Source: Arthrobacter sp. KBS0702
GTDB taxonomy: Bacteria > Actinomycetota > Actinomycetes > Actinomycetales > Micrococcaceae
NCBI RefSeq assembly: GCF_005937985.2
Contig: NZ_CP042172.1
Location: 3,348,001-3,412,000, forward strand
DNA length: 64,000 bases
Direction: 5' to 3'
Positions 27,224 through 43,571 of the stretch are shown here, piece after piece (within the stretch, counting starts at the first letter, position 1; each line of letters opens with the position of its first letter). The notes below the pieces were generated by a model. It ran no database searches and was not told the DNA's origin. It worked only from the letters and a program-made list of their open reading frames with translations. The position numbers and the translations under genes were made by a program.

Positions 27224-27403
27224 ATGGCTGAGCCCCGGGACCCGGGTCAGGCTGACCCGGGGAAGGCGCTGTACGAGGAGCGCCTCAAGCTGTTGGAGGG
27301 CCTCTGGATGCCCGCTGCTCCGCCGTGGGAGGACCTGCCCGACGAGGTCAAGGAACGCTGGCGGGCCCATGCCGCGGATGACGACGCCGACGGTTCCGCA
27401 TAA
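27224..27403 (+). CDS. Small acidic hypothetical protein
   Basis: A 59-residue hydrophilic protein with W-E-D-L-P-D-E-V-K-E-R-W-R-A-H-A, a helical pattern common in small uncharacterised actinobacterial proteins. A TTG at 27221 could also start it. No membrane segment, signal or known motif is present. It sits alone between pabC and the synthetase operon, with a possible tiny coupled frame upstream. Codon use fits the neighbours. Confidence 0.5.
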   Translation: MAEPRDPGQADPGKALYEERLKLLEGLWMPAAPPWEDLPDEVKERWRAHAADDDADGSA

Positions 27404-27765
27404 GTAGCCGCCGCCGTAAGAAATGCTCTCACCGGCCCGTTGCCGTGCTTCTTGTTCCATGAGTGACGGCTGAGGCACGGACCGGGTAGTCCCGCGGGAA
27501 AACTCGGGTACCGCCTACTCGTGGGCGGCGCTGGCCCCGTCAATAGAGTTCTTAGGACATGGAGCACACGCCGAAAGTCGTGGGGGGACGTTTCCCGCGC
27601 GTGGGTATCAATTCCGAGGTCCACTTTCCCACTTCTCAGCGTCTACGGCGCTGTGCCTCCTGAGACCGAACCGAAGGACCAGCGCTTCAGGCGAGTCATG
27701 GTGACGCACCGTCCCTGACCGCGCCCTGAAGCCCGGACGATTCGCCAGTAATAAGGAGAGCGCGA
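27404..27765 (+). other. Long leader/promoter region of the Pls-type operon
   Basis: A 362-bp region with no convincing gene. It contains the inverted repeat GCTTCAGG (27684-27691)/CCTGAAGC (27725-27732), which ends 23 nt before the AAGGAG of the synthetase gene. CCGTGC/GCACGG repeats lie around 27440-27482. I see no match to the lysine riboswitch core or to another class I know. Confidence 0.5.
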
Positions 27766-30700
27766 TTGGACTTCACCAACAGTTCAGGAACGGCACATCG
27801 CGGAGCAGTTCCAACCAGACCGGCCGTAACCATTCGCACTCACGAAAATCTTGGGACCCGTTCTTCCGACCATCTAAGGCCGCGGGGCCCGAGGGTAGGC
27901 CCTGTTGCCCCAAGCTTTCCGCCCCAGGAGCAGAAGAACACCTCTGACGTAGCTGTTTTCCCGGTAACGACGGCGCCCACGGCCCGGACCCTGGTGAACA
28001 TCATCGAGGAAACAATCGCGCGGTACCCGGCTGCTCCGGCGCTGGATGACGGCACGGTGTTGCTGAGCTATGAGGCCCTTGGCGAGCGGATTGCGGACAT
28101 AGCCCGTCGCTTGTGGAGCGCGAATATCGGCGCAGGAGACCGCGTCGGGGTTCGTGTTCCGTCGGGCTCGGTGGATCTCTACATTGCGATCCTGGGCGTC
28201 CTTGCGGCGGGGGCTGCCTATGTACCGGTTGACGCCGACGAACCGGACGACCGTGCCGAGACAGTCTGGTCCGAGGCAGGCGTCTGCGCTGTGATCGGCC
28301 AAAGCCTTGAGCTGACCCTCTTCGGCGGGGTGCGCACCCTGGGCCATAGCCCGGAAGCACACTGCGAAGACGATGCCTGGATCATCTTCACCTCCGGATC
28401 CACCGGCAAGCCTAAGGGTGTGGCCATCACGCACCGCTCGGCAGCTGCCCTGGTCGACGCCGAAACAGAGCTGTACTGTGTCAGCAGCCCGCTGGGACCC
28501 GGCGACCGGGTCCTGGCCGGATTGTCCGTGGCATTCGACGCTTCCTGTGAGGAAATGTGGCTGGCCTGGCGGAACGGGGCCTGCCTGGTTCCGGCCCCCC
28601 GGGATGTGGTCCGCTCCGGCGCTGACCTGGGCCCCTGGCTGGCGCGGCGGAATATCACCGTCGTGTCGACGGTCCCCACGCTCGCAGCCTTATGGCCGAA
28701 CGAGGCCTTGGACAAGGTCCGGCTGCTCATCTTTGGCGGCGAGGCGTGCCCGGCCGACCTCGTCGCCAGGCTCGCGGGTCCGTCCCGCGAGGTCTGGAAC
28801 ACCTACGGGCCCACCGAGGCGACGGTAATTGCCTGTGCGGCGCTGGTGGACGGCAAGCAGCCCGTGCGGATCGGGCTCCCGCTGTGCGGGTACGCCCTCG
28901 CCGTTGTTGACGCGGACGGACATCCGGTGGCGTGGGGCGAGGAGGGCGAGCTTGTCATCGGCGGAGTGGGACTCGGCCGCTACCTGGATACCGCCAAGGA
29001 CGCCGAAAAATACGCGCCGATGCCCCTCCTCGGATGGCCCCGGGCCTACCGCAGCGGTGACATCGTTCGCGCGGATCCTGCCGGTCTGGTGTTCGTCGGC
29101 CGCGCCGATGAGCAGGTCAAACTGGCCGGCCGCCGGGTCGAGATGGGCGAAATTGACGAAGCCCTCTCCGAACTACCGGGAGTCGCAGCGGCAGCCGGAG
29201 CCATCCAGCTGAGCCCCAGTGGAAACAAGGTACTCGCGGGGTATCTGGTGCCGGCCTCGGGCGTGGTCCTCGATCTTGGACAGTGCCGGGCCCTCCTGGC
29301 TGAAAAACTGCCGGCGCAACTGGTTCCGGCCCTGGGCATTCTTGAGGAACTTCCCCTCAAGACCTCCGGCAAGGTGGACAGGAAAGCCCTTCCCTGGCCG
29401 CTGGCGACCGAGGCGGGTCCGCCGGTCAAGGTCAAGGAGCTCACGGGCGAATTGGCCTGGCTGGGTCAGCAATGGACAGATCTCCTCGGTCCACTGCCGC
29501 TCACCGAGGAGAGCAATTTCTTCGTCTCCGGCGGAGCCAGCCTGGCGGCCGCACAGTTGGTCTCCTCGCTGCGGGTCCGCTACCCGGACGTTTCCATTGC
29601 CGACATCTACGCGCACCCAACCCTCGGCGGGCTCTCAACCCACCTGCTGGAGAGCACCGCTTCAGAGTTCGAAGAGCGGGAAGTCGCGCCCACACCTGCG
29701 TCGATCGCTTGGATCCAGTCGGCAGTGATCCTGGCTCTCTACTCCATTACGGGCCTGCGCTATGTCACCGGCATCCTGATTGTCTGCTACATCCTCGTCC
29801 GGGTTTCGGACAGCCCGTGGGTTCCCAATCCGCCGCTCGTGCCGATTGCGATCGCGTGGGTAGTGCTCTACAGCCTTCCATTCCGTTTCCTCCTTGCCGT
29901 GGCATCGGCGCGCCTCCTGCTCATCGGGATCAGGCCCGGCGTCTACCCGCGGGGAGGCCTCACCCACCTGAGATTGTGGACCGCGGAACGGGTCGTCACC
30001 TTCTGCAAGCTGGAACCGCTGATGGGCACCCCCATGGCCTGCTGGTATGCCCGCGCGCTGGGATGCAAGGTGGGCAAAGACGTCCACCTCGACGCCATGC
30101 CACCGGTGACCGGACTTGCCACGTTCGGGACCGGCGCATCGATTGAACACGAGGCAGACCTGGCCGGCCACTGGCTCAACGGCGACGTCCTGCACATAGG
30201 CCGCATCCAGGTGGACGACGACGCGCGGGTCGGGATGCGCTCCACGCTCATGAACGACGCCCACGTCGGTGAAGGCGCAGAGATTGCACCGGGCACCTCC
30301 GTCACCGGCAAGGTCCCGGCCGGGGAACACTGGGCAGGATCGCAAATGGAGCACGTGGGCGCGGCAGGCACAGATTGGCCCTCCACCGCCAGCGAGCGCC
30401 GCCCCTCACCTCTGATCTCGATTCTCTACCCGCTCTCGCTCTCCGGCCTGACCCTCCTGCCCATCGTCTCTGTTGTCCCGGGCTGCTTCGTGGCACTGAC
30501 TGCCCTTCGGGGGGCCCGGTCCCTTCAGGACGCCCTGTGGGCCCTGGCGGCGTGGAGCCCGGTGTTCCTGGTGGCCACCGTCGTTGTCTATCTGTCCCTG
30601 ACGGCAGGACTCGTGCGCGCTTTGAGTGTCCTGATAAAGCCCGGCTTCCATTCGGTACATGGCGCGGCGGCCTGGGCCTCCTGGTTGACCGAAGCGCTGC

Positions 30701-31893
30701 TGACGAAATCCCTCATCGCCACCTACCCCATCTACGCCAGCCTCTTCACCCCGGTGTGGATGCGCATGATTGGCGCCCAGGTGGGCAAGCACGTGGAAGT
30801 CTCGACCGTCGAGACCCTGCCGCACCTTACCCGGTTCGCCGACCGGTCTTTCCTGGCAGACCACTCGATGGTGGCCGCACGGCGTGTCCGCAAAGGCTGG
30901 ATCCACCTCGGCGCCGCAAGTGTGGGAGAAAAATCCTTTGTCGGCAACTCCGCAATCGTGGGGCCGGACCGCCACGTTCCCGACAACTCCCTGCTGGCCG
31001 TGCTGTCCTCCGCCCCGAAGGACATGCCCGCAAACTCGTCCTGGTTCGGACGTCCTGCCGTGGAGCTCCCCCGGCCGGCGGACCAAGGGGAATCGTCCCT
31101 CACCTACAACCCCGCACGGCGTCTGCTCGTTGCACGCGCGGCCGTCGAAGTGTGCCGGATTCTTCCAGCCATCGTCACGGCCTGGCTGGCCTTGATCACG
31201 GTATGGGTTCTCAACTTGATCTACGACCAGAACGGACTGGCCGTTACCGCCCTGTGGTCCGGTCCGGTGCTGCTGGGCAGCGGCGTCGTTGCCTGCCTTG
31301 TTGCCCTGGCCGCGAAATGGGCCCTCGTGGGGCGCTTCGAAGTGACTGAGTACCCGCTCTGGACCTCCTTCGTCTGGCGCAATGAACTCGCGGACGTCTT
31401 CTCCGAATCGCTGGCGGTCCCCGGGCTGGTCCGGATGAGCCTCGGCACGCCGATGCTCAACTGGTGGATGCGCCTGATGGGCACCAAAGTCGGCCGCGGG
31501 GTGTGGTGCGAGACCTGGTGGCTGCCGGAGTTCGACCTGATCTCCCTGGGCAATGGCGTCAGCGTCAATCGCGGAACCGTGCTGCAGACACACCTCTTCC
31601 ACGATCGCATCATGCGGATGGACAGGATCCACCTGGGCCCCGAGTCAACACTGGGCCCGAACAGCATTGTGCTGCCGGGCAGCACGGTCAAGGACGGCGC
31701 CACGGTTGGCGCGGCGTCCCTGGTGATGCGCTCGGAGGTCGTGCCGGCGGGCAGCCACTGGGCGGGCAACCCCATCCGCCACTGGTCGCCGAACAGGGCT
31801 CCAATGAGGCAGCGGCATAGGGCCGCATCGGCCGGGAACTTCCAGCAATCAACACCACACCACGCGCCGTCGGCCAAGAACCCGGGAGTGTAA
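27766..31893 (+). CDS. Pls/PosA-type membrane non-ribosomal peptide synthetase (poly-amino-acid synthetase)
   Basis: 1375 residues. The adenylation domain (about 75-555) has A3 TSGSTGKPKG (about 209-218), A5 N-T-Y-G-P-T-E (345-351) and A10 G-K-V-D-R-K-A-L-P. The carrier domain follows, with phosphopantetheine site S592 in G-G-A-S-L. From about 645 to 1345 there are about six membrane helices interleaved with three hexapeptide/acetyltransferase-like domains (e.g. W-A-G-S and H-W-A-G-N-P). No standard condensation or thioesterase domain is present. This is the architecture of epsilon-poly-L-lysine synthetase (Pls) and PosA, which polymerise free diamino acids at the membrane. The start is TTG 27766 with AAGGAG at 8 nt; the first 60-70 residues look extra and disordered. 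Which amino acid is used cannot be read safely. Confidence 0.93.
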   Translation: MDFTNSSGTAHRGAVPTRPAVTIRTHENLGTRSSDHLRPRGPRVGPVAPSFPPQEQKNTSDVAVFPVTTAPTARTLVNIIEETIARYPAAPALDDGTVLLSYEALGERIADIARRLWSANIGAGDRVGVRVPSGSVDLYIAILGVLAAGAAYVPVDADEPDDRAETVWSEAGVCAVIGQSLELTLFGGVRTLGHSPEAHCEDDAWIIFTSGSTGKPKGVAITHRSAAALVDAETELYCVSSPLGPGDRVLAGLSVAFDASCEEMWLAWRNGACLVPAPRDVVRSGADLGPWLARRNITVVSTVPTLAALWPNEALDKVRLLIFGGEACPADLVARLAGPSREVWNTYGPTEATVIACAALVDGKQPVRIGLPLCGYALAVVDADGHPVAWGEEGELVIGGVGLGRYLDTAKDAEKYAPMPLLGWPRAYRSGDIVRADPAGLVFVGRADEQVKLAGRRVEMGEIDEALSELPGVAAAAGAIQLSPSGNKVLAGYLVPASGVVLDLGQCRALLAEKLPAQLVPALGILEELPLKTSGKVDRKALPWPLATEAGPPVKVKELTGELAWLGQQWTDLLGPLPLTEESNFFVSGGASLAAAQLVSSLRVRYPDVSIADIYAHPTLGGLSTHLLESTASEFEEREVAPTPASIAWIQSAVILALYSITGLRYVTGILIVCYILVRVSDSPWVPNPPLVPIAIAWVVLYSLPFRFLLAVASARLLLIGIRPGVYPRGGLTHLRLWTAERVVTFCKLEPLMGTPMACWYARALGCKVGKDVHLDAMPPVTGLATFGTGASIEHEADLAGHWLNGDVLHIGRIQVDDDARVGMRSTLMNDAHVGEGAEIAPGTSVTGKVPAGEHWAGSQMEHVGAAGTDWPSTASERRPSPLISILYPLSLSGLTLLPIVSVVPGCFVALTALRGARSLQDALWALAAWSPVFLVATVVVYLSLTAGLVRALSVLIKPGFHSVHGAAAWASWLTEALLTKSLIATYPIYASLFTPVWMRMIGAQVGKHVEVSTVETLPHLTRFADRSFLADHSMVAARRVRKGWIHLGAASVGEKSFVGNSAIVGPDRHVPDNSLLAVLSSAPKDMPANSSWFGRPAVELPRPADQGESSLTYNPARRLLVARAAVEVCRILPAIVTAWLALITVWVLNLIYDQNGLAVTALWSGPVLLGSGVVACLVALAAKWALVGRFEVTEYPLWTSFVWRNELADVFSESLAVPGLVRMSLGTPMLNWWMRLMGTKVGRGVWCETWWLPEFDLISLGNGVSVNRGTVLQTHLFHDRIMRMDRIHLGPESTLGPNSIVLPGSTVKDGATVGAASLVMRSEVVPAGSHWAGNPIRHWSPNRAPMRQRHRAASAGNFQQSTPHHAPSAKNPGV

Positions 31894-31896
31894 ACA

Positions 31897-32835
31897 ATGA
31901 CTTTCATCGACGAGAGGGCGGACACTTCCGCCGCCGCATGCCGCGCCTTTGGATCGGTCATAACGGCGATGGTCACGCCGTTCGACCACCGCGGCGAGCC
32001 GGACGACGCGGGCGCCTCAACACTTGCGAGGTGGTTGACCCAGCCGGGCTGGAATGACGGCATCGTGGTCAACGGCACCACCGGAGAATCGGTGGCCACG
32101 TCGGATCGGGAAAAGGCCTCGATGGTCCAATGCGTGACGCAGGCAGTCCGGGACCGCGGCACGAAAGTCATCGCCGGGGTGGGTGCCGGCGACACACGCC
32201 ACAGCGTCGCCCTGGCCATGGCTGCCGCGTCGCAGGGGGCGGACGGCCTGCTGGTGGTCGCGCCATACTACTCACGCCCGTCACAGCGGGGGATCCTCGA
32301 ACATTTCCTTGCCATTGCCGACAGCACACCGCTTCCGGTAATGCTCTACGACATCCCGAAGCGGACGGGGGTCGCGGTAGAGCCGGACACGTTCGTGGCG
32401 GCCGCCAAGCACCCCCGTATCGTCGCGGTCAAGGACGCCAAAGGCGACCTGGAGTCGTCCGCCTGGGTGATGGAGCGGACGAACCTCGCCTACTTCTCGG
32501 GCGATGACGCGCTGAACCTGCCGTTGCTCTCCATCGGTGCGGTGGGTTTCGTTTCCGTCGTGGGCCACGTCGTCGGAAACCGGCTGCGCGACCTCCTCGA
32601 CAGCTACCAGCAGGGACGGGTCGCGGAGGCACGTGACATCCACCGTGAGCTGCTCCCGATCTACCGGGGAATGTTCCGGGCTCCCGCCGCCGCATCAGTC
32701 AAAGCCGCATTGACCAGCCAGGGACTTCCCGGCGGACCGGTCCGGCTCCCCCTGGTCGGCCTCACGGAGGAGGAGACCCAGCTCCTGGTTCAGGATCTGG
32801 CATCAGTGCGGGTTCCTTCCTCACAGCCGGCATGA
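31897..32835 (+). CDS. DapA-family 4-hydroxy-tetrahydrodipicolinate synthase, cluster paralogue
   Basis: A 312-residue TIM-barrel aldolase. All catalytic residues are present: T61-T62 in N-G-T-T-G-E-S, Y124-Y125 in P-Y-Y-S-R-P, Y151, R156 in Y-D-I-P-K-R-T-G, and Schiff-base K179 in V-K-D. It should condense pyruvate and aspartate semialdehyde at the entry to DAP and lysine. At the E. coli lysine-feedback positions this protein has D70, K73, G98 and H102 instead of His53, His56, Asn80 and Glu84, so lysine inhibition is probably lost. It starts 3 nt after the synthetase stop, with GGGAG inside that gene's end, so it is co-expressed. A role in precursor supply for the polymer is inferred. Confidence 0.9.
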   Translation: MTFIDERADTSAAACRAFGSVITAMVTPFDHRGEPDDAGASTLARWLTQPGWNDGIVVNGTTGESVATSDREKASMVQCVTQAVRDRGTKVIAGVGAGDTRHSVALAMAAASQGADGLLVVAPYYSRPSQRGILEHFLAIADSTPLPVMLYDIPKRTGVAVEPDTFVAAAKHPRIVAVKDAKGDLESSAWVMERTNLAYFSGDDALNLPLLSIGAVGFVSVVGHVVGNRLRDLLDSYQQGRVAEARDIHRELLPIYRGMFRAPAAASVKAALTSQGLPGGPVRLPLVGLTEEETQLLVQDLASVRVPSSQPA

Positions 32836-32869
32836 ACGGCATCGACAAAATCGTGTGCAAAGGACGGCC

Positions 32870-34171
32870 ATGACATCCACTAAGAAGCAGCGCCTCATCG
32901 GCGTCGACGTCGCCCGGGGCCTGGCCCTGATTGGCATGATGGCAATCCACATCCTGCCGGAGGCCGACGACAACTTCGAACCGACGCTGTCCTGGACCCT
33001 ATTTGCCGGCAGATCCGCGGGTCTGTTCGCGCTGCTTGCCGGAGTGTCGCTGACCTTCACCTCAGGCGGCAGGACGCCGCTCAAGGGCAGGCCACTCACG
33101 GCAGCGAAGTGGGCCCTGGCAGTGCGCGCCCTCATCATCATGTCCATCGGCCTGCTCATCGCCCTGCTCAACCCGCCGGCAGCCATCATCCTGGCCTATT
33201 ACGGGATGCTGTTCCTGATGGCGATTCCGCTGCTGGGATTTGGCCCCCGCGTTCTCGCGGCCGCCGCCCTCGGCTTTGCCGTGCTGGGGCCGATCTTCAT
33301 GCAAGCGGTACGCGGCTCGCTGCCGACCCTGGACGGATATGATCCATCCTTCGCGACCCTGGTCACCGACCCTGCAGCGACGATCTCGGACTTGTTCGTG
33401 GGGGGCTCCTATCCAGCCATCCCCTGGATGGCCTACATCTGTGCAGGCCTCGCCCTTGGCAGGCTCGACCTCCGGTCCCACGCACTCCAAGTCAGAATGG
33501 CCGTCGGCGGCCTCGGACTCGCGACGGGCTCGTGGCTGCTGTCCGAACTCCTCCTGGGCCCCTTCGGCGGCAGGACCCACCTGCTCGAATCAACCCCGTG
33601 GATGGGCGCCAAGGGAATTCGCGACGTGCAGATCTGGGGTCCCGACAGTTGGGCCCCCGATCCGACCCTTCCCACAACGTCAGGGTGGTGGCTGACGATC
33701 CTCTCGCCGTATTCTTCGACACCACTGGAACTTCTCAACACCATCGGCATCGCGGTGATGGTGCTGGGTGCCGTGCTGCTCGTCGCCAGCAAGGCAGCAA
33801 CGGCCTTCATGCCGCTCGCCACCATGGGCGGCATGACACTGACGCTGTATTCCGCGCACCTCGTTGCCCTGTCCACCGGCTTCCTCCTGGACCGTCCCGG
33901 GGTAGCCATGGCCATGCACACGTTCGCCGCAGCGCTCTTCGCCGTCATTTGGAGGAACGTGACCGCCGGAAAGCAAGGCCCCTTGGAGGGTCTAGTGTCC
34001 CGCGCCTCCAACCGGGCGCGCCAGCGGGTGCTCGGGAGCGGGGTTCCGGCAGCCAAGCCGGGGAACCCCGCCGCGGACTCCCTCCCCGGACCCGCCCCTG
34101 AGCCAAAACACAACGCGCGGGAGGGAGCCGTCACGTCTGCCGGCACCGACCGCCCGGGAGGTGCGCAATAG
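32870..34171 (+). CDS. Polytopic membrane protein (DUF1624/DUF418-like acyltransferase family)
   Basis: A 433-residue protein with about ten membrane helices. The start R-L-I-G-V-D-V-A-R-G-L-A-L-I-G-M-M-A-I-H matches the heparan-glucosaminide N-acetyltransferase-like DUF1624/DUF418 families, where the conserved D, R-G and H lie in helix 1. The C-terminal about 60 residues are hydrophilic, rich in Pro and Ala. ATG 32870 has AAAGGA at 5 nt; the last codon overlaps the next gene. In the synthetase operon it could acylate, transport or otherwise handle the polymer or its wall target, but no substrate can be assigned. Confidence 0.85.
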   Translation: MTSTKKQRLIGVDVARGLALIGMMAIHILPEADDNFEPTLSWTLFAGRSAGLFALLAGVSLTFTSGGRTPLKGRPLTAAKWALAVRALIIMSIGLLIALLNPPAAIILAYYGMLFLMAIPLLGFGPRVLAAAALGFAVLGPIFMQAVRGSLPTLDGYDPSFATLVTDPAATISDLFVGGSYPAIPWMAYICAGLALGRLDLRSHALQVRMAVGGLGLATGSWLLSELLLGPFGGRTHLLESTPWMGAKGIRDVQIWGPDSWAPDPTLPTTSGWWLTILSPYSSTPLELLNTIGIAVMVLGAVLLVASKAATAFMPLATMGGMTLTLYSAHLVALSTGFLLDRPGVAMAMHTFAAALFAVIWRNVTAGKQGPLEGLVSRASNRARQRVLGSGVPAAKPGNPAADSLPGPAPEPKHNAREGAVTSAGTDRPGGAQ

Positions 34172-35088
34172 CCACGCTGAGCCGTCTCCTGGCCGTTCTC
34201 TTTGCCGTCCCAGCAGTGCTGGGACTCGCTGCGGCCCCGGTCTCAGCCGCGCCGTCTGCGGGAGCGGTATCCAATCCGTGCGAGCGCTTGAACGCAGGTG
34301 AAGTGCTGTTCCCCAGTCACGGAGCGCATCGGGTGACGTTCGCCACCGCGAAAGCCTATGGCGATATCGAGGTCCTCATTACGGGGTGCGTCAGCACCAG
34401 CGACGGGTATGTCCAGGAGTGGCAAAACACCGGATTCGCGGGCAGATCCGGTTTCGCCCCGCCGGGCAAGATGTGGCAGGACACGCTCTACTCGCCGCAG
34501 GGGTCATTCTCCTTCACCGAGGCGCTCGGCCGGGCCAACCCGGGAACGGCATTGAAGTACCACACGCTCAATCGCAAGTCGCGGTGGGGCGGGGAGCCCG
34601 GGCCGAACTACAACCAGTACTTCGAAGGTGAGGATGGCGGCGCTGACGAGGACCTGTGGTTCTATATGCGGGAGGGGGACTACGAGCAGGCGGCCGTCAT
34701 CAACTGGAACCGCGAACCCGACATGCCCACCGTTCAGGGCGCCTCCTTCGCCATCTTCCTGCATGCCGGCAATTCGCCTACTCTGGGGTGCATCTCCACC
34801 GACCTCCCCACCGTGACCCGCCTCCTCGAGAGTGCCACGCCGGGCGACCGGATCATTATGGGAGTGGAACCTGCGGTGTTCAGCCGAAGCACGAAAACCA
34901 CCGCAACCCCGCACCCAACGGCCGCGGCGAAGGCCACCGCCGCCCCGCTGCCCACGGGTGCCACCAAGACCCCCGCAAGCCCCCCGGCGGCTGTCCCGCT
35001 GCCGGCCAAGATTCTTGCCGCCGGACTCGGCGCGGCCGCAGTCCTGACCGGCGCCGCCGTTCTTGTCCGCCGGCGCAAACGCCTCTGA
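34168..35088 (+). CDS. Exported YkuD-like L,D-transpeptidase-family protein with C-terminal anchor
   Basis: About 306 residues. The in-frame sequence from 34168 encodes a signal peptide (L-S-R-L-L-A-V-L-F-A-V-P then A-P-V-S-A), a domain ending in H199-A-G-N and G-C208-I-S, the His/Cys pattern of short YkuD proteins, a Thr/Pro/Ala linker, and a final membrane helix followed by R-R-R-K-R-L. It should act at the cell wall. The best ribosome-binding site (GGGAGGT, 34156-34162) points to an ATA at 34168, overlapping the previous stop; CTG 34177 is the next choice. The first ordinary start, GTG 34216, would remove most of the signal peptide. It is the last gene of the synthetase operon. Confidence 0.78.
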   Translation: MATLSRLLAVLFAVPAVLGLAAAPVSAAPSAGAVSNPCERLNAGEVLFPSHGAHRVTFATAKAYGDIEVLITGCVSTSDGYVQEWQNTGFAGRSGFAPPGKMWQDTLYSPQGSFSFTEALGRANPGTALKYHTLNRKSRWGGEPGPNYNQYFEGEDGGADEDLWFYMREGDYEQAAVINWNREPDMPTVQGASFAIFLHAGNSPTLGCISTDLPTVTRLLESATPGDRIIMGVEPAVFSRSTKTTATPHPTAAAKATAAPLPTGATKTPASPPAAVPLPAKILAAGLGAAAVLTGAAVLVRRRKRL

Positions 35089-35171: not shown

Positions 35172-35275
35172 TTTTTGTGAGTAATGAGACCCGGCGCCAA
35201 GCCCTGACTGGCCGGTCGGCAACCCTCCCTTTCGCGGCGGGGTGCCTCAGGTGAATACTCGGCATATCGACCCAT
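35172..35275 (+). ncRNA. SAM-IV riboswitch
   Basis: The tract C-C-A-A-G-C-C-C...GGCCGGTCGGCAACCCTCC...GCGGGGTGCC, with GAGTA (35179-35183) pairing TACTC (35256-35260) as P1, matches the SAM-IV aptamer known from actinobacteria. It lies 34-49 nt before the first gene of the metZ operon and should lower its expression when S-adenosylmethionine is high. The 3' boundary (pseudoknot region) is approximate. Confidence 0.85.
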
Positions 35276-35308
35276 TCGAGCTGCAAACGTGAAAGAAGGA
35301 GAGCCGTC

Positions 35309-38529: not shown

Positions 38530-40053
38530 TCAGTCCTGGAAATACTCGATCTTGGCGCCGATGGTGTTGAGCCGTTCAGCCAGGTCCTCATAGCCGCGCT
38601 CGATCACGTAGATGTTGCGCAGCTCGGACACACCCCGCGCGGCGAGCATGGCCAGCAGCAGGCAGGCGGCAGGGCGCAGGGCGGGCGGGCAGCCGACCTC
38701 CGCGGCCCGCCACTTGGTGGGCCCGTTGACGTAGATCCGGTGCGGATCCAGGAGCTGGACCTGGGCGCCCAGCTTATTCAGCTCGGTCAGGTAGATGGCC
38801 CGGTTCTCGTACACCCAGTCGTGGATCATCGTCTGACCCTGCGCGTTGGCGGCGATGACGGCGAAGAACGGTAGGTTGTCGATGTTCAGGCCGGGGAAGG
38901 GCATCGGGTGGATCTTGTCCTCCGGCGCGGTCAGCTCCGAGGGCTGGGTGGTGACGTCCACCAGCCGGGTGCGGCCGTTGCGGGCGACGTATTCCGCCGA
39001 CACCTCCAGCCGCTGGCCCATCTGCTCAAGCGTCGCCAGCTCGATCTCCATGAACTCGATCGGGACCCGGCGGATCGTGACCTCGGAATTCGTCACGATG
39101 CCGGCGGTGATCAGGCTCATCGCCTCGATCGGGTCCTCGGACGGGAAGTACTCGATGTCGACGTTGATCGACGGGCGGCCGACGATCTTGAGCGTCGTGG
39201 TGCCGACGCCGTCGATCTGCACGCCCAGCATCTGCAGGTAGAAGCAGAGGTCCTGGACCATGTAGTTCGGGCTGGCGTTGCGGATGATGGTGCTGCCGCT
39301 GCGGTGCGCGGCGGCCATGATGGCGTTCTCGGTCACCGTGTCGCCGCGTTCACTCAGCACGAAAGACCGGTCGTGGCCGTCCGAGGTCGGTGCCTGCACG
39401 CTGTAAAAGCCGGACTTCGCCTCGACGCTGAGCCCGAACTGCCGCAGGGCCTGCATGTGCGGCTCCACGGTGCGGGTGCCGAGGTCGCAGCCGCCTGCGT
39501 AGGGCAGCCGGTATTCGGTGGACTCATCGAGCAGCGGGCCCAGGAGCATAATGACGCTGCGGGTGCGCCGGGCGGCCTCCACGTCCATCGAGGCCAGGTC
39601 CAGCACGGCCGGGCGGCGGATCTGCAGATCGTTGGCGTTGAGCCAGGTGCATTCGACGCCGATGCTGGTCAGCACCTCGACGATCCGGTTGACCTCCTCG
39701 ATCCGGGCCAGCCGGCGCAACACCGTGGTGCCGCGGTTGATGAGGCTGGCGCAGAGCAAGGCGACGCCGGCGTTCTTGCTGCTGTTGACGTCGACTGCGC
39801 CGGAGAGCGTGCGGCCGCCCTCGACCCGGAGGTGGGTCATCTGGGGCCGGCCCACCTTGACGATGGTGCGGCCGAAAATCGATTCGAGCCGCTGGATCAT
39901 TTTCAGGCTCAGGTTCTGCTTGCCCTGCTCCATCCGGGCGATGGCGCTCTGGCTGGTTCCCAGCTCGGCGGCCAGCTGTCCCTGGGTCCAGCCCTTCTCG
40001 CCGCGGGCGTCCCGGAGCACGGCGCCAACGTATTCGGCAGTCTGTTGAGTCAT
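38530..40053 (-). CDS. MurA-like enolpyruvyl transferase with N-terminal XRE helix-turn-helix
   Basis: A 507-residue fusion. Residues about 8-62 are an XRE-type DNA-binding domain (WTQGQLAAELGTSQSAIARM). From about 75 on the sequence is an EPSP synthase-fold UDP-GlcNAc 1-carboxyvinyltransferase: K93-N94 in S-S-K-N-A matches the catalytic Lys-Asn of MurA, and C189 in A-G-G-C-D-L-G-T-R matches the catalytic Cys115 loop. It could be a second MurA, a regulator sensing UDP-GlcNAc, or both. A TTG at 40062 is an alternative start; no ribosome-binding site is clear, and TGATAT lies 6-7 nt before the TTG. It follows the ECF transporter genes on the same strand after 133 nt. Confidence 0.92.
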   Translation of the reverse strand: MTQQTAEYVGAVLRDARGEKGWTQGQLAAELGTSQSAIARMEQGKQNLSLKMIQRLESIFGRTIVKVGRPQMTHLRVEGGRTLSGAVDVNSSKNAGVALLCASLINRGTTVLRRLARIEEVNRIVEVLTSIGVECTWLNANDLQIRRPAVLDLASMDVEAARRTRSVIMLLGPLLDESTEYRLPYAGGCDLGTRTVEPHMQALRQFGLSVEAKSGFYSVQAPTSDGHDRSFVLSERGDTVTENAIMAAAHRSGSTIIRNASPNYMVQDLCFYLQMLGVQIDGVGTTTLKIVGRPSINVDIEYFPSEDPIEAMSLITAGIVTNSEVTIRRVPIEFMEIELATLEQMGQRLEVSAEYVARNGRTRLVDVTTQPSELTAPEDKIHPMPFPGLNIDNLPFFAVIAANAQGQTMIHDWVYENRAIYLTELNKLGAQVQLLDPHRIYVNGPTKWRAAEVGCPPALRPAACLLLAMLAARGVSELRNIYVIERGYEDLAERLNTIGAKIEYFQD

Positions 40054-40186
40054 ATCCAACAAATATCATGGATGAGTTATTGACGCCCTCCACGCTGCCC
40101 GAATAGCAGTGAATCTCACACGATACTCACCTCGTGATTCACCTCGTGCGATATCGCTTCTTCCATGCCGGCCCCGGGGGCACCGG

Positions 40187-43262: not shown

Positions 43263-43343
43263 ATCGTCCTCCTGAGGTACAGGAGGGGAGGGCGTTCCGG
43301 CTGCACGCGGCTTTCGCCACGGATGCCGGGCACCCCGAGAACT

Positions 43344-43466
43344 CGACTCCCTTGCGCCGGTACTAACCGGATCAGGTTCGAGGGTCTGCGGCTGTCCGCA
43401 CTCTCAGCGCCCACTTACGGTTCACCGGATTGCTCCAGTGATGCCGACGGCGGCGCTCCCCTGTCG
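43344..43466 (-). ncRNA. TPP (THI-box) riboswitch
   Basis: On the minus strand the aptamer runs from CGAC (43466-43463), which pairs with GTCG (43347-43344) as P1. It has the invariant core G-C-T-G-A-G-A and, further on, GAACCTGATCCGGTTAGTAC then C-C-G-G-C-G-C-A-A-G-G-G-A. It lies about 80 nt before ykoE and should shut off the thiamine/HMP transporter when thiamine pyrophosphate is abundant. Confidence 0.95.
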
Positions 43467-43571
43467 TATTAAAATCACCCTTGTGGGCTGGGCCAGTTTA
43501 CACCCGCCGGAGCCCAAGTGACTCGCAGCTGGGGTTGCGCAGCGGCACCCACCTAACGGAAGCTGAATCCC

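Follow-up and report, generated by a model that had tools for sequence, protein, structure and literature searches.

The 64,000-nucleotide stretch of Arthrobacter sp. KBS0702 analyzed here (contig NZ_CP042172.1, positions 3,348,001 to 3,412,000; hereafter the window) carries an operon that very probably makes poly-lysine, an antimicrobial polymer, as predicted from the family and substrate pocket of its synthetase. Four open reading frames were confirmed on the forward strand at 27766–35088, encoding a synthetase of the Pls/PosA type (pls), a paralog of 4-hydroxy-tetrahydrodipicolinate synthase (dapA), a membrane protein of the TmAT superfamily, and an exported YkuD-fold protein (ykuD). The pls gene belongs to one of two branches of the family, designated B, and the conserved core of the branch-B operon is pls-(dapA)-TmAT.

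The Synthetase, Its Two Branches, and Its Substrate Pocket

By sequence, the first gene product is a member of the Pls/PosA synthetases of cationic homopoly(amino acids). Its C-terminal region matches TIGR02353 with 618.6 bits (cut-off 423.1; residues 653–1337), and its best match in the PDB is 7wew, the adenylation (A) domain of epsilon-poly-L-lysine (epsilon-PL) synthase (644.8 bits, E = 2.5e-192, residues 50–547), the next-best chain being a gramicidin synthase subunit with two matched stretches (366.7). Pfam searches returned AMP-binding, PP-binding, and Hexapep domains above cut-off and two subthreshold matches, with no condensation or thioesterase domain at E ≤ 0.1, which upholds this part of the domain plan given in a preliminary description of the window. 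Ser592 of the carrier domain is invariant across 90 aligned Pls proteins, and hydropathy, taken by itself, peaks in three clusters (near residues 654–726, 886–950, and 1120–1186), the family plan having six helices that separate domains C1–C3. Clustering of the A domain with nonpolymer synthetases was not seen, the basis being the TIGR02353 match and 7wew, which lies far above the other solved chains; on these two matches, the reading of the gene as a nonpolymer synthetase was rejected.

Relatives were collected by a scan of genome contigs in which the best 80 of 585 relatives were kept, with branch A consequently under-sampled and branch B possibly extending further. Removal of L164 (a copy of L044), L052 (from the species of L051), and L161 (called at 778 aa) from 93 cluster proteins left the 90 of the Pls tree. 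In this unrooted FastTree phylogeny, 17 proteins (branch B) were separated from 73 (branch A) with a support of 100, L105 having a long branch; L067 and L070, missed by the gene caller, were added to the branch-B set, and the total of branch-B loci is 20. A rooted tree comprised 48 rows (20 of branch B, 25 of the 73 of branch A, and three outgroup synthetases); each branch appeared in it once, with Shimodaira–Hasegawa-like approximate likelihood ratio (SH-aLRT) supports of 89 for B and 92 for A, below the 95 mark.

The specificity code, whose positions we take to be correctly placed by motif alignment to gramicidin synthetase numbering, reads DAESIGTVIK in the window protein (D258, A259, E262, S301, I322, G324, T346, V354, I355, and K536, identified on the 90-protein alignment). 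The pocket is DAESIGTVVK in the 73 branch-A proteins, and among the 20 of branch B it is DAESIGTVIK in 17, DAESIGTIIK in two, and DAESIGTVVK in one. According to the description of PosA (PMC10522769; papers are cited by PubMed Central number, and what is taken from each refers to the accessible part of its text), position 2 is alanine in lysine enzymes, phenylalanine in poly-diaminopropionate (PDAP) synthetase, and methionine in PosA, positions 1 and 3 being conserved. The window pocket has the Asp1, Ala2, and Glu3 of the lysine type as given in that source, in agreement with the polymer of lysine or a related diamino acid predicted earlier, and lysine is the likely substrate because position 2 is alanine, as in lysine enzymes. 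The polymer could also be a relative of epsilon-PL (with another linkage, or made of beta-lysine, ornithine, or a mixture), the isoleucine at position 9 marking the change: this residue is found in 19 of the 20 branch-B rows, and its equivalent in PosA, Ser313, contacts the substrate (PMC10522769). We consider this distinctly improbable, given that Ala2 and Glu3 are as in lysine enzymes, that the DapA of the operon supplies the lysine pathway, and that position 2 is methionine in ornithine PosA and glycine in the enzyme of the beta-lysine polymer, in the accessible parts of the literature. The three outgroup sequences (L226, L227, and L228) are of another synthetase type present in some other genomes of the genus, about 31–32% identical, with the pocket DFECLSVVTK; they may be of the PDAP type, and their pocket suggests that they make poly-diaminopropionate.

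Gene Order in Relatives

Genes around the sampled loci were called with a custom caller, and branch-B context was counted by tblastn. TmAT lies downstream of pls on the same strand at 19 of the 20 branch-B loci, the exception being L053 (which holds a 75-aa piece of dapA, at a contig end and upstream of pls), whereas by gene labels none of the 73 branch-A loci has a TmAT within 4.5 kb. Conversely, a gene of a peptidase cluster (four members were tested, all Peptidase_M1) occurs within 4.5 kb of pls, on either strand, at 58 of the 73 branch-A loci and at 4 of 17 in branch B. Linkage to pls was found for dapA at 13 of the 20 branch-B loci and for ykuD at 12 (eight downstream on the same strand and four divergent). 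The supposition that the gene order would be kept in relatives was borne out, since the operon recurs outside the window genome, but the full set in the window order and on one strand is limited to 7 of the 20 loci (the window, L044, L049, L155, L166, L167, and L230). In L048, L049, L166, and L167, an additional PldII-type gene (a term used here for a gene of the M1 family placed beside pls) follows 0.6–1.1 kb further on. The pairing of pls with TmAT extends to loci from seven named genera, and because Kocuria (L050, L051, and L058) and Corynebacterium (L067, L070, and L105) loci hold it without dapA or ykuD, it looks like the oldest part, to which dapA and ykuD joined later in other Micrococcaceae, in an order of gain that we infer. 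In Paeniglutamicibacter antarcticus (L046, 1265–14214), a branch-A pls with its PldII-type gene stands back to back with a branch-B pls followed by dapA and TmAT, ykuD lying between them.

A Dedicated DapA

The second gene product passes TIGR00674 (258.2 bits; cut-off 206.15) and aligns with Mycobacterium tuberculosis DapA at the TT of NGTTGES, the Tyr of YDIP, the following Arg, and the Lys of VKDAK, which we take to be active-site residues. In a 30-row tree, which carries a long-branch warning on its far group, the 17 operonic DapAs group together (97/98) to the exclusion of 10 housekeeping DapAs; the operon thus has its own DapA, as the preliminary description held, and the host genome has two further dapA-family genes above cut-off. 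Operon-type DapA (E ≤ 1e-110) was found in 30 of 395 genomes of the family and 7 of its 32 genera, the host included, and at 28 of 31 distinct loci dapA is flanked on its own strand by pls on the upstream side and TmAT on the downstream side. L224 has a 36% pls-like match on the opposite side of dapA, and L225 neither pls nor TmAT within 1.5 kb. Overexpression of dapA raised epsilon-PL by 19.8% in Streptomyces diastatochromogenes, according to a review (PMC8506220).

A TmAT-Fold Acyltransferase

The third gene product, labeled a DUF1624/DUF418-like membrane protein in the preliminary description, is indeed a membrane protein, but the label has to be corrected: it scores 43.4 with PF07786 (cut-off 22), the structure model has the 10-helix TmAT fold, and on that model it is a TmAT-fold transmembrane acyltransferase. 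Over 37 sequences, D13 and R16 are nearly invariant and F53, G58, R86, and Y327 invariant. By alignment offset to human HGSNAT, whose catalytic histidine is in the loop after TM1, His27 falls on a human asparagine and the human histidine on Pro38. With helices numbered from the model, all motifs listed for the superfamily (PMC12423673) are present, namely DxxR in TM1, FxxxxG in TM2, Arg in TM3, Gly in TM6, and Tyr in TM9; the TM6 glycine may be G193 or G197. A divergent second TmAT occurs in eight loci of a related group in the TmAT tree, whose rows were drawn from loci fetched by pls, dapA, or TmAT, so that the linked share is not a rate. That the protein exports the polymer would suit a polytopic protein encoded downstream of pls so regularly, but the exporter reading was rejected by the fold and is, in our view, highly unlikely.

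The YkuD-Fold Protein

The fourth gene product matches Pfam YkuD (PF03734) with 17.8, below the cut-off of 23.4, and has the YkuD fold, in which a His and a Cys are conserved at the short spacing H-x8-C. It is probably an exported YkuD-fold enzyme with a C-terminal membrane anchor; export and fold agree with the earlier claim of an exported YkuD-like protein. The closest folds are Csd6, Pgp2, and Bd1075, which we take to be LD-carboxypeptidases, and the fold is compatible with a transpeptidase, a carboxypeptidase, or a hydrolase. The enzyme may plausibly handle the polymer at the wall, as the preliminary description inferred. The idea that this enzyme is exclusive to pls loci was rejected, since LGFP-type proteins encoded away from pls fall within the clade of the linked ones.

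A Second pls in the Host

The host genome contains a second pls, 49% identical to the first and placed in branch A (L154), followed by a PldII-like gene, whereas beside the window pls no gene of the M1 peptidase cluster was found. The preliminary description of a self-contained system was therefore too strong. A second full-length Pls match (47–53% identity) was detected in 9 of the 17 distinct branch-B genomes (G000, G093, G144, G210, G499, G527, G529, G530, and G532), the host copy being the one placed in the tree. These 17 genomes correspond to 19 labels, G210/G531 and G101/G533 being counted once each and G093 and G532 lying on two pieces each. Simple replacement of PldII by TmAT is only weakly supported because 14 of them keep a PldII-like gene; it is absent from Kocuria marina, K. 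tytonis, and G235, the two Kocuria genomes having no completeness figure. The relative G018 has a single Pls match but has retained a PldII-like gene, which shares 78% identity with the host copy. Two predicted poly-lysine synthetases per cell suggest different products or sites.

Proposed Mechanism

In the mechanism that we propose, DapA would pull aspartate semialdehyde into the lysine branch (step 1, strongly indicated by its family). The Pls A domain would then activate L-lysine and load the carrier domain, and the membrane-embedded acetyltransferase-like domains would form the isopeptide-linked lysine chain and release it outside (step 2, strongly indicated by family membership and pocket). 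In step 3, cytosolic CoA would supply an acyl group, probably acetyl, which TmAT would pass through the membrane to an acceptor outside the cytoplasm; the fold and CoA-site residues are demonstrated in gene 3 by model and alignment, and the acceptor is what we infer. Outside, the membrane-anchored YkuD-fold enzyme would act on peptidoglycan stem peptides, either to remodel the wall against the polycation or to join the polymer to it (step 4). As predicted from sequence, steps 1 and 2 are probably correct, together with step 3 in so far as it assigns an acyltransferase without specifying the acceptor. The free amines of the polymer are our first choice of acceptor, tentatively and with a somewhat less than even chance of being right; their acylation would lower the charge of the polymer and protect the producer, or alter the product. 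Joining of the polymer to the wall by the YkuD-fold enzyme seems rather unlikely. Self-protection is probably needed, because Arthrobacter globiformis is listed in an antimicrobial table with values of 8 and 16 (PMC8506220).

Several observations weigh against this mechanism. The catalytic histidine of HGSNAT is not at the position expected in gene 3 from the alignment offset, and at position 9 the window pocket has Ile in place of the Val of branch A. YkuD relatives also occur away from pls, in 23 of 61 genomes of the genus (E ≤ 0.001), some with LGFP repeats. The PldII-like gene present somewhere in 14 of the 17 branch-B genomes makes TmAT no clean substitute for PldII; within the genus the cassette is a rarity, 3 of 206 genomes having the operon-type DapA; and in one of these, G447 (L197), the 7.6 kb preceding dapA contain no pls, the contig ending just downstream.

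Some of these data would fit a conventional epsilon-PL synthetase accompanied by an additional DapA, TmAT and YkuD being general envelope enzymes (for instance for O-acylation or as an LD-carboxypeptidase), perhaps self-protective, that never touch the polymer. The presumed activity of the closest folds of gene 4 and the YkuD relatives away from pls point this way. Known TmATs, moreover, usually take carbohydrate acceptors (PMC12423673). We regard this reading as doubtful, if substantial, because a general envelope gene need not stay near pls, as TmAT does in seven genera, and a divergent second TmAT recurs in the related group. Beyond the four steps, branch-B operons might make a second, envelope-bound poly-lysine, unlike the free antimicrobial that the same cell makes with its other pls (with PldII): TmAT would N-acylate the emerging chain and the YkuD-fold enzyme would couple the amino groups of the chain to the stem of the peptidoglycan, so that a cationic polymer would be bound covalently in the wall. 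The coupling would resemble that of Braun lipoprotein, which is joined to peptidoglycan through lysine. This reading is unlikely.

Operon Layout and Neighboring Genes

The coordinates of the features are given in table 1. Intergenic spacing is 3 nt for pls-dapA and 34 nt for dapA-TmAT, and TmAT and ykuD abut or overlap. The start of pls is TTG, with AAGGAG at 27753–27758 ahead of it; for TmAT, ATG 32870, with AAGGA at 32860–32864, is preferred to GTG 32855. Under translation table 11 ykuD starts at GTG 34216; a full signal-like peptide is obtained from the homologous start at 34168–34177, where, however, there is no ATG, GTG, or TTG; G018 has a GTG at the corresponding place, overlapping the TmAT stop. 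This unusual start codon and the rarity of the cassette could be read as signs of a decaying or chance gene set. The probability of that is close to negligible: Nei-Gojobori dN/dS ratios against G018 are 0.129 (pls), 0.129 (dapA), 0.216 (TmAT), and 0.145 (ykuD), all near the 0.117 of the neighboring class-IV aminotransferase gene, and the gene set is therefore more than chance; the frames, moreover, are intact and the order recurs.

Table 1. Positions of the operon and its parts in the window
Feature	Position	Strand	Evidence or remarks
Presumed promoter/leader of the operon	27404..27765	+	blastn blocks common to the window and the G018 upstream region
pls (branch B), epsilon-poly-L-lysine synthetase-like, 1375 aa	27766..31893	+	TIGR02353; PDB 7wew match
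Adenylation domain, residues 71–547	27976..29406	+	PF00501, 206.7 bits; pocket residues
Carrier (PP-binding) domain, residues 565–627, Ser592	29458..29646	+	PF00550, 29.2 bits
Pls/PosA C-terminal region, residues 653–1337, hydrophobic segments and acetyltransferase-like hexapeptide repeats	29722..31776	+	TIGR02353; PF00132; hydropathy
dapA paralog (4-hydroxy-tetrahydrodipicolinate synthase), operon-specific clade	31897..32835	+	TIGR00674; clade support
Transmembrane acyltransferase (TmAT superfamily, PF07786), by model	32870..34171	+	
Exported YkuD-fold enzyme, probably C-terminally membrane-anchored	34177..35088	+	Start candidates ATA 34168, CTG 34177, GTG 34216

In G018 (L155), the operon lies between homologs of its two outer neighbors in the window, the class-IV aminotransferase gene and a GCS2 gene; in G018 this interval lacks the three genes that, in the window, come after the operon behind a SAM-IV riboswitch. 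A 59-aa small open reading frame (27224–27403, +), whose frame is conserved in G018, separates the aminotransferase gene from pls. The SAM-IV riboswitch (35180–35295, +), directly downstream of the operon, precedes DUF1737, rhodanese, and Cys/Met PLP-enzyme genes, and a TPP riboswitch (43331–43472, −) stands ahead of an ABC_cobalt-family transporter gene. Riboswitch control of the operon was rejected, these two being the only Rfam matches, one downstream and the other farther off. At 38530–40062 (−), a protein, perhaps UDP-GlcNAc enolpyruvyl transferase-like, has an N-terminal helix-turn-helix (HTH) domain before an EPSP-synthase-type domain.

Comparison with Known Systems

Epsilon-PL is sold as a food preservative; its function in nature and the way it is regulated are still poorly known (PMC8117764). 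Pls homologs in Arthrobacter and other coryneforms, with a pls-peptidase context, are reported in the same paper, NAPAA (epsilon-polylysine-like) clusters in Micrococcaceae were reported by antiSMASH (PMC12025171, PMC11078813), and further epsilon-PL clusters have been described in which, in the accessible parts of the papers, the neighbors found here are not named (PMC12067966, PMC10628120). In the open-access literature searched, as far as its accessible text goes, no description of dapA, TmAT, or YkuD alongside pls was found, and the set differs from the poly-lysine clusters described there. Evolution has placed in this synthetase operon the lysine-branch enzyme that engineers later overexpressed, together with a TmAT and an enzyme of the wall. 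Should TmAT prove to act on the polymer, it would offer a route to acylated poly-lysines and a directly testable self-protection mechanism, and genomes with two pls provide an internal control for the purpose of each polymer.

The individual parts have close counterparts. The pls-pldII locus of Streptomyces albulus and Corynebacterium variabile resembles the window in synthetase architecture, in a homologous A domain, and in a near-identical pocket, but its partner is the PldII peptidase, whereas the window has dapA, TmAT, and ykuD with a Pls of the sister branch (PMC8117764). PosA, the delta-poly-L-ornithine synthetase, shares family and domain plan with the window Pls and differs in substrate and pocket (DMEHNGTVSK; PMC10522769). 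For another described system with the same kind of enzyme and other substrates, a figure legend names precursor genes such as ask and dat; no dapA, TmAT, or YkuD beside them is listed in the accessible text. Gene 4 shares fold, conserved Cys, and export with the YkuD-fold enzymes (Csd6, Pgp2, Bd1075, YkuD, and Ldt proteins) and departs from them in its Pfam score and short H-x8-C spacing. Gene 3 has the fold and acyl-CoA site residues of the TmAT superfamily (HGSNAT, AT3/OafB, YeiB, and TraX), in which HGSNAT acetylates an amino sugar, using a catalytic His apparently not conserved in gene 3, and TraX, a borderline member, is needed for the acetylation of F-pilin (PMC12423673).
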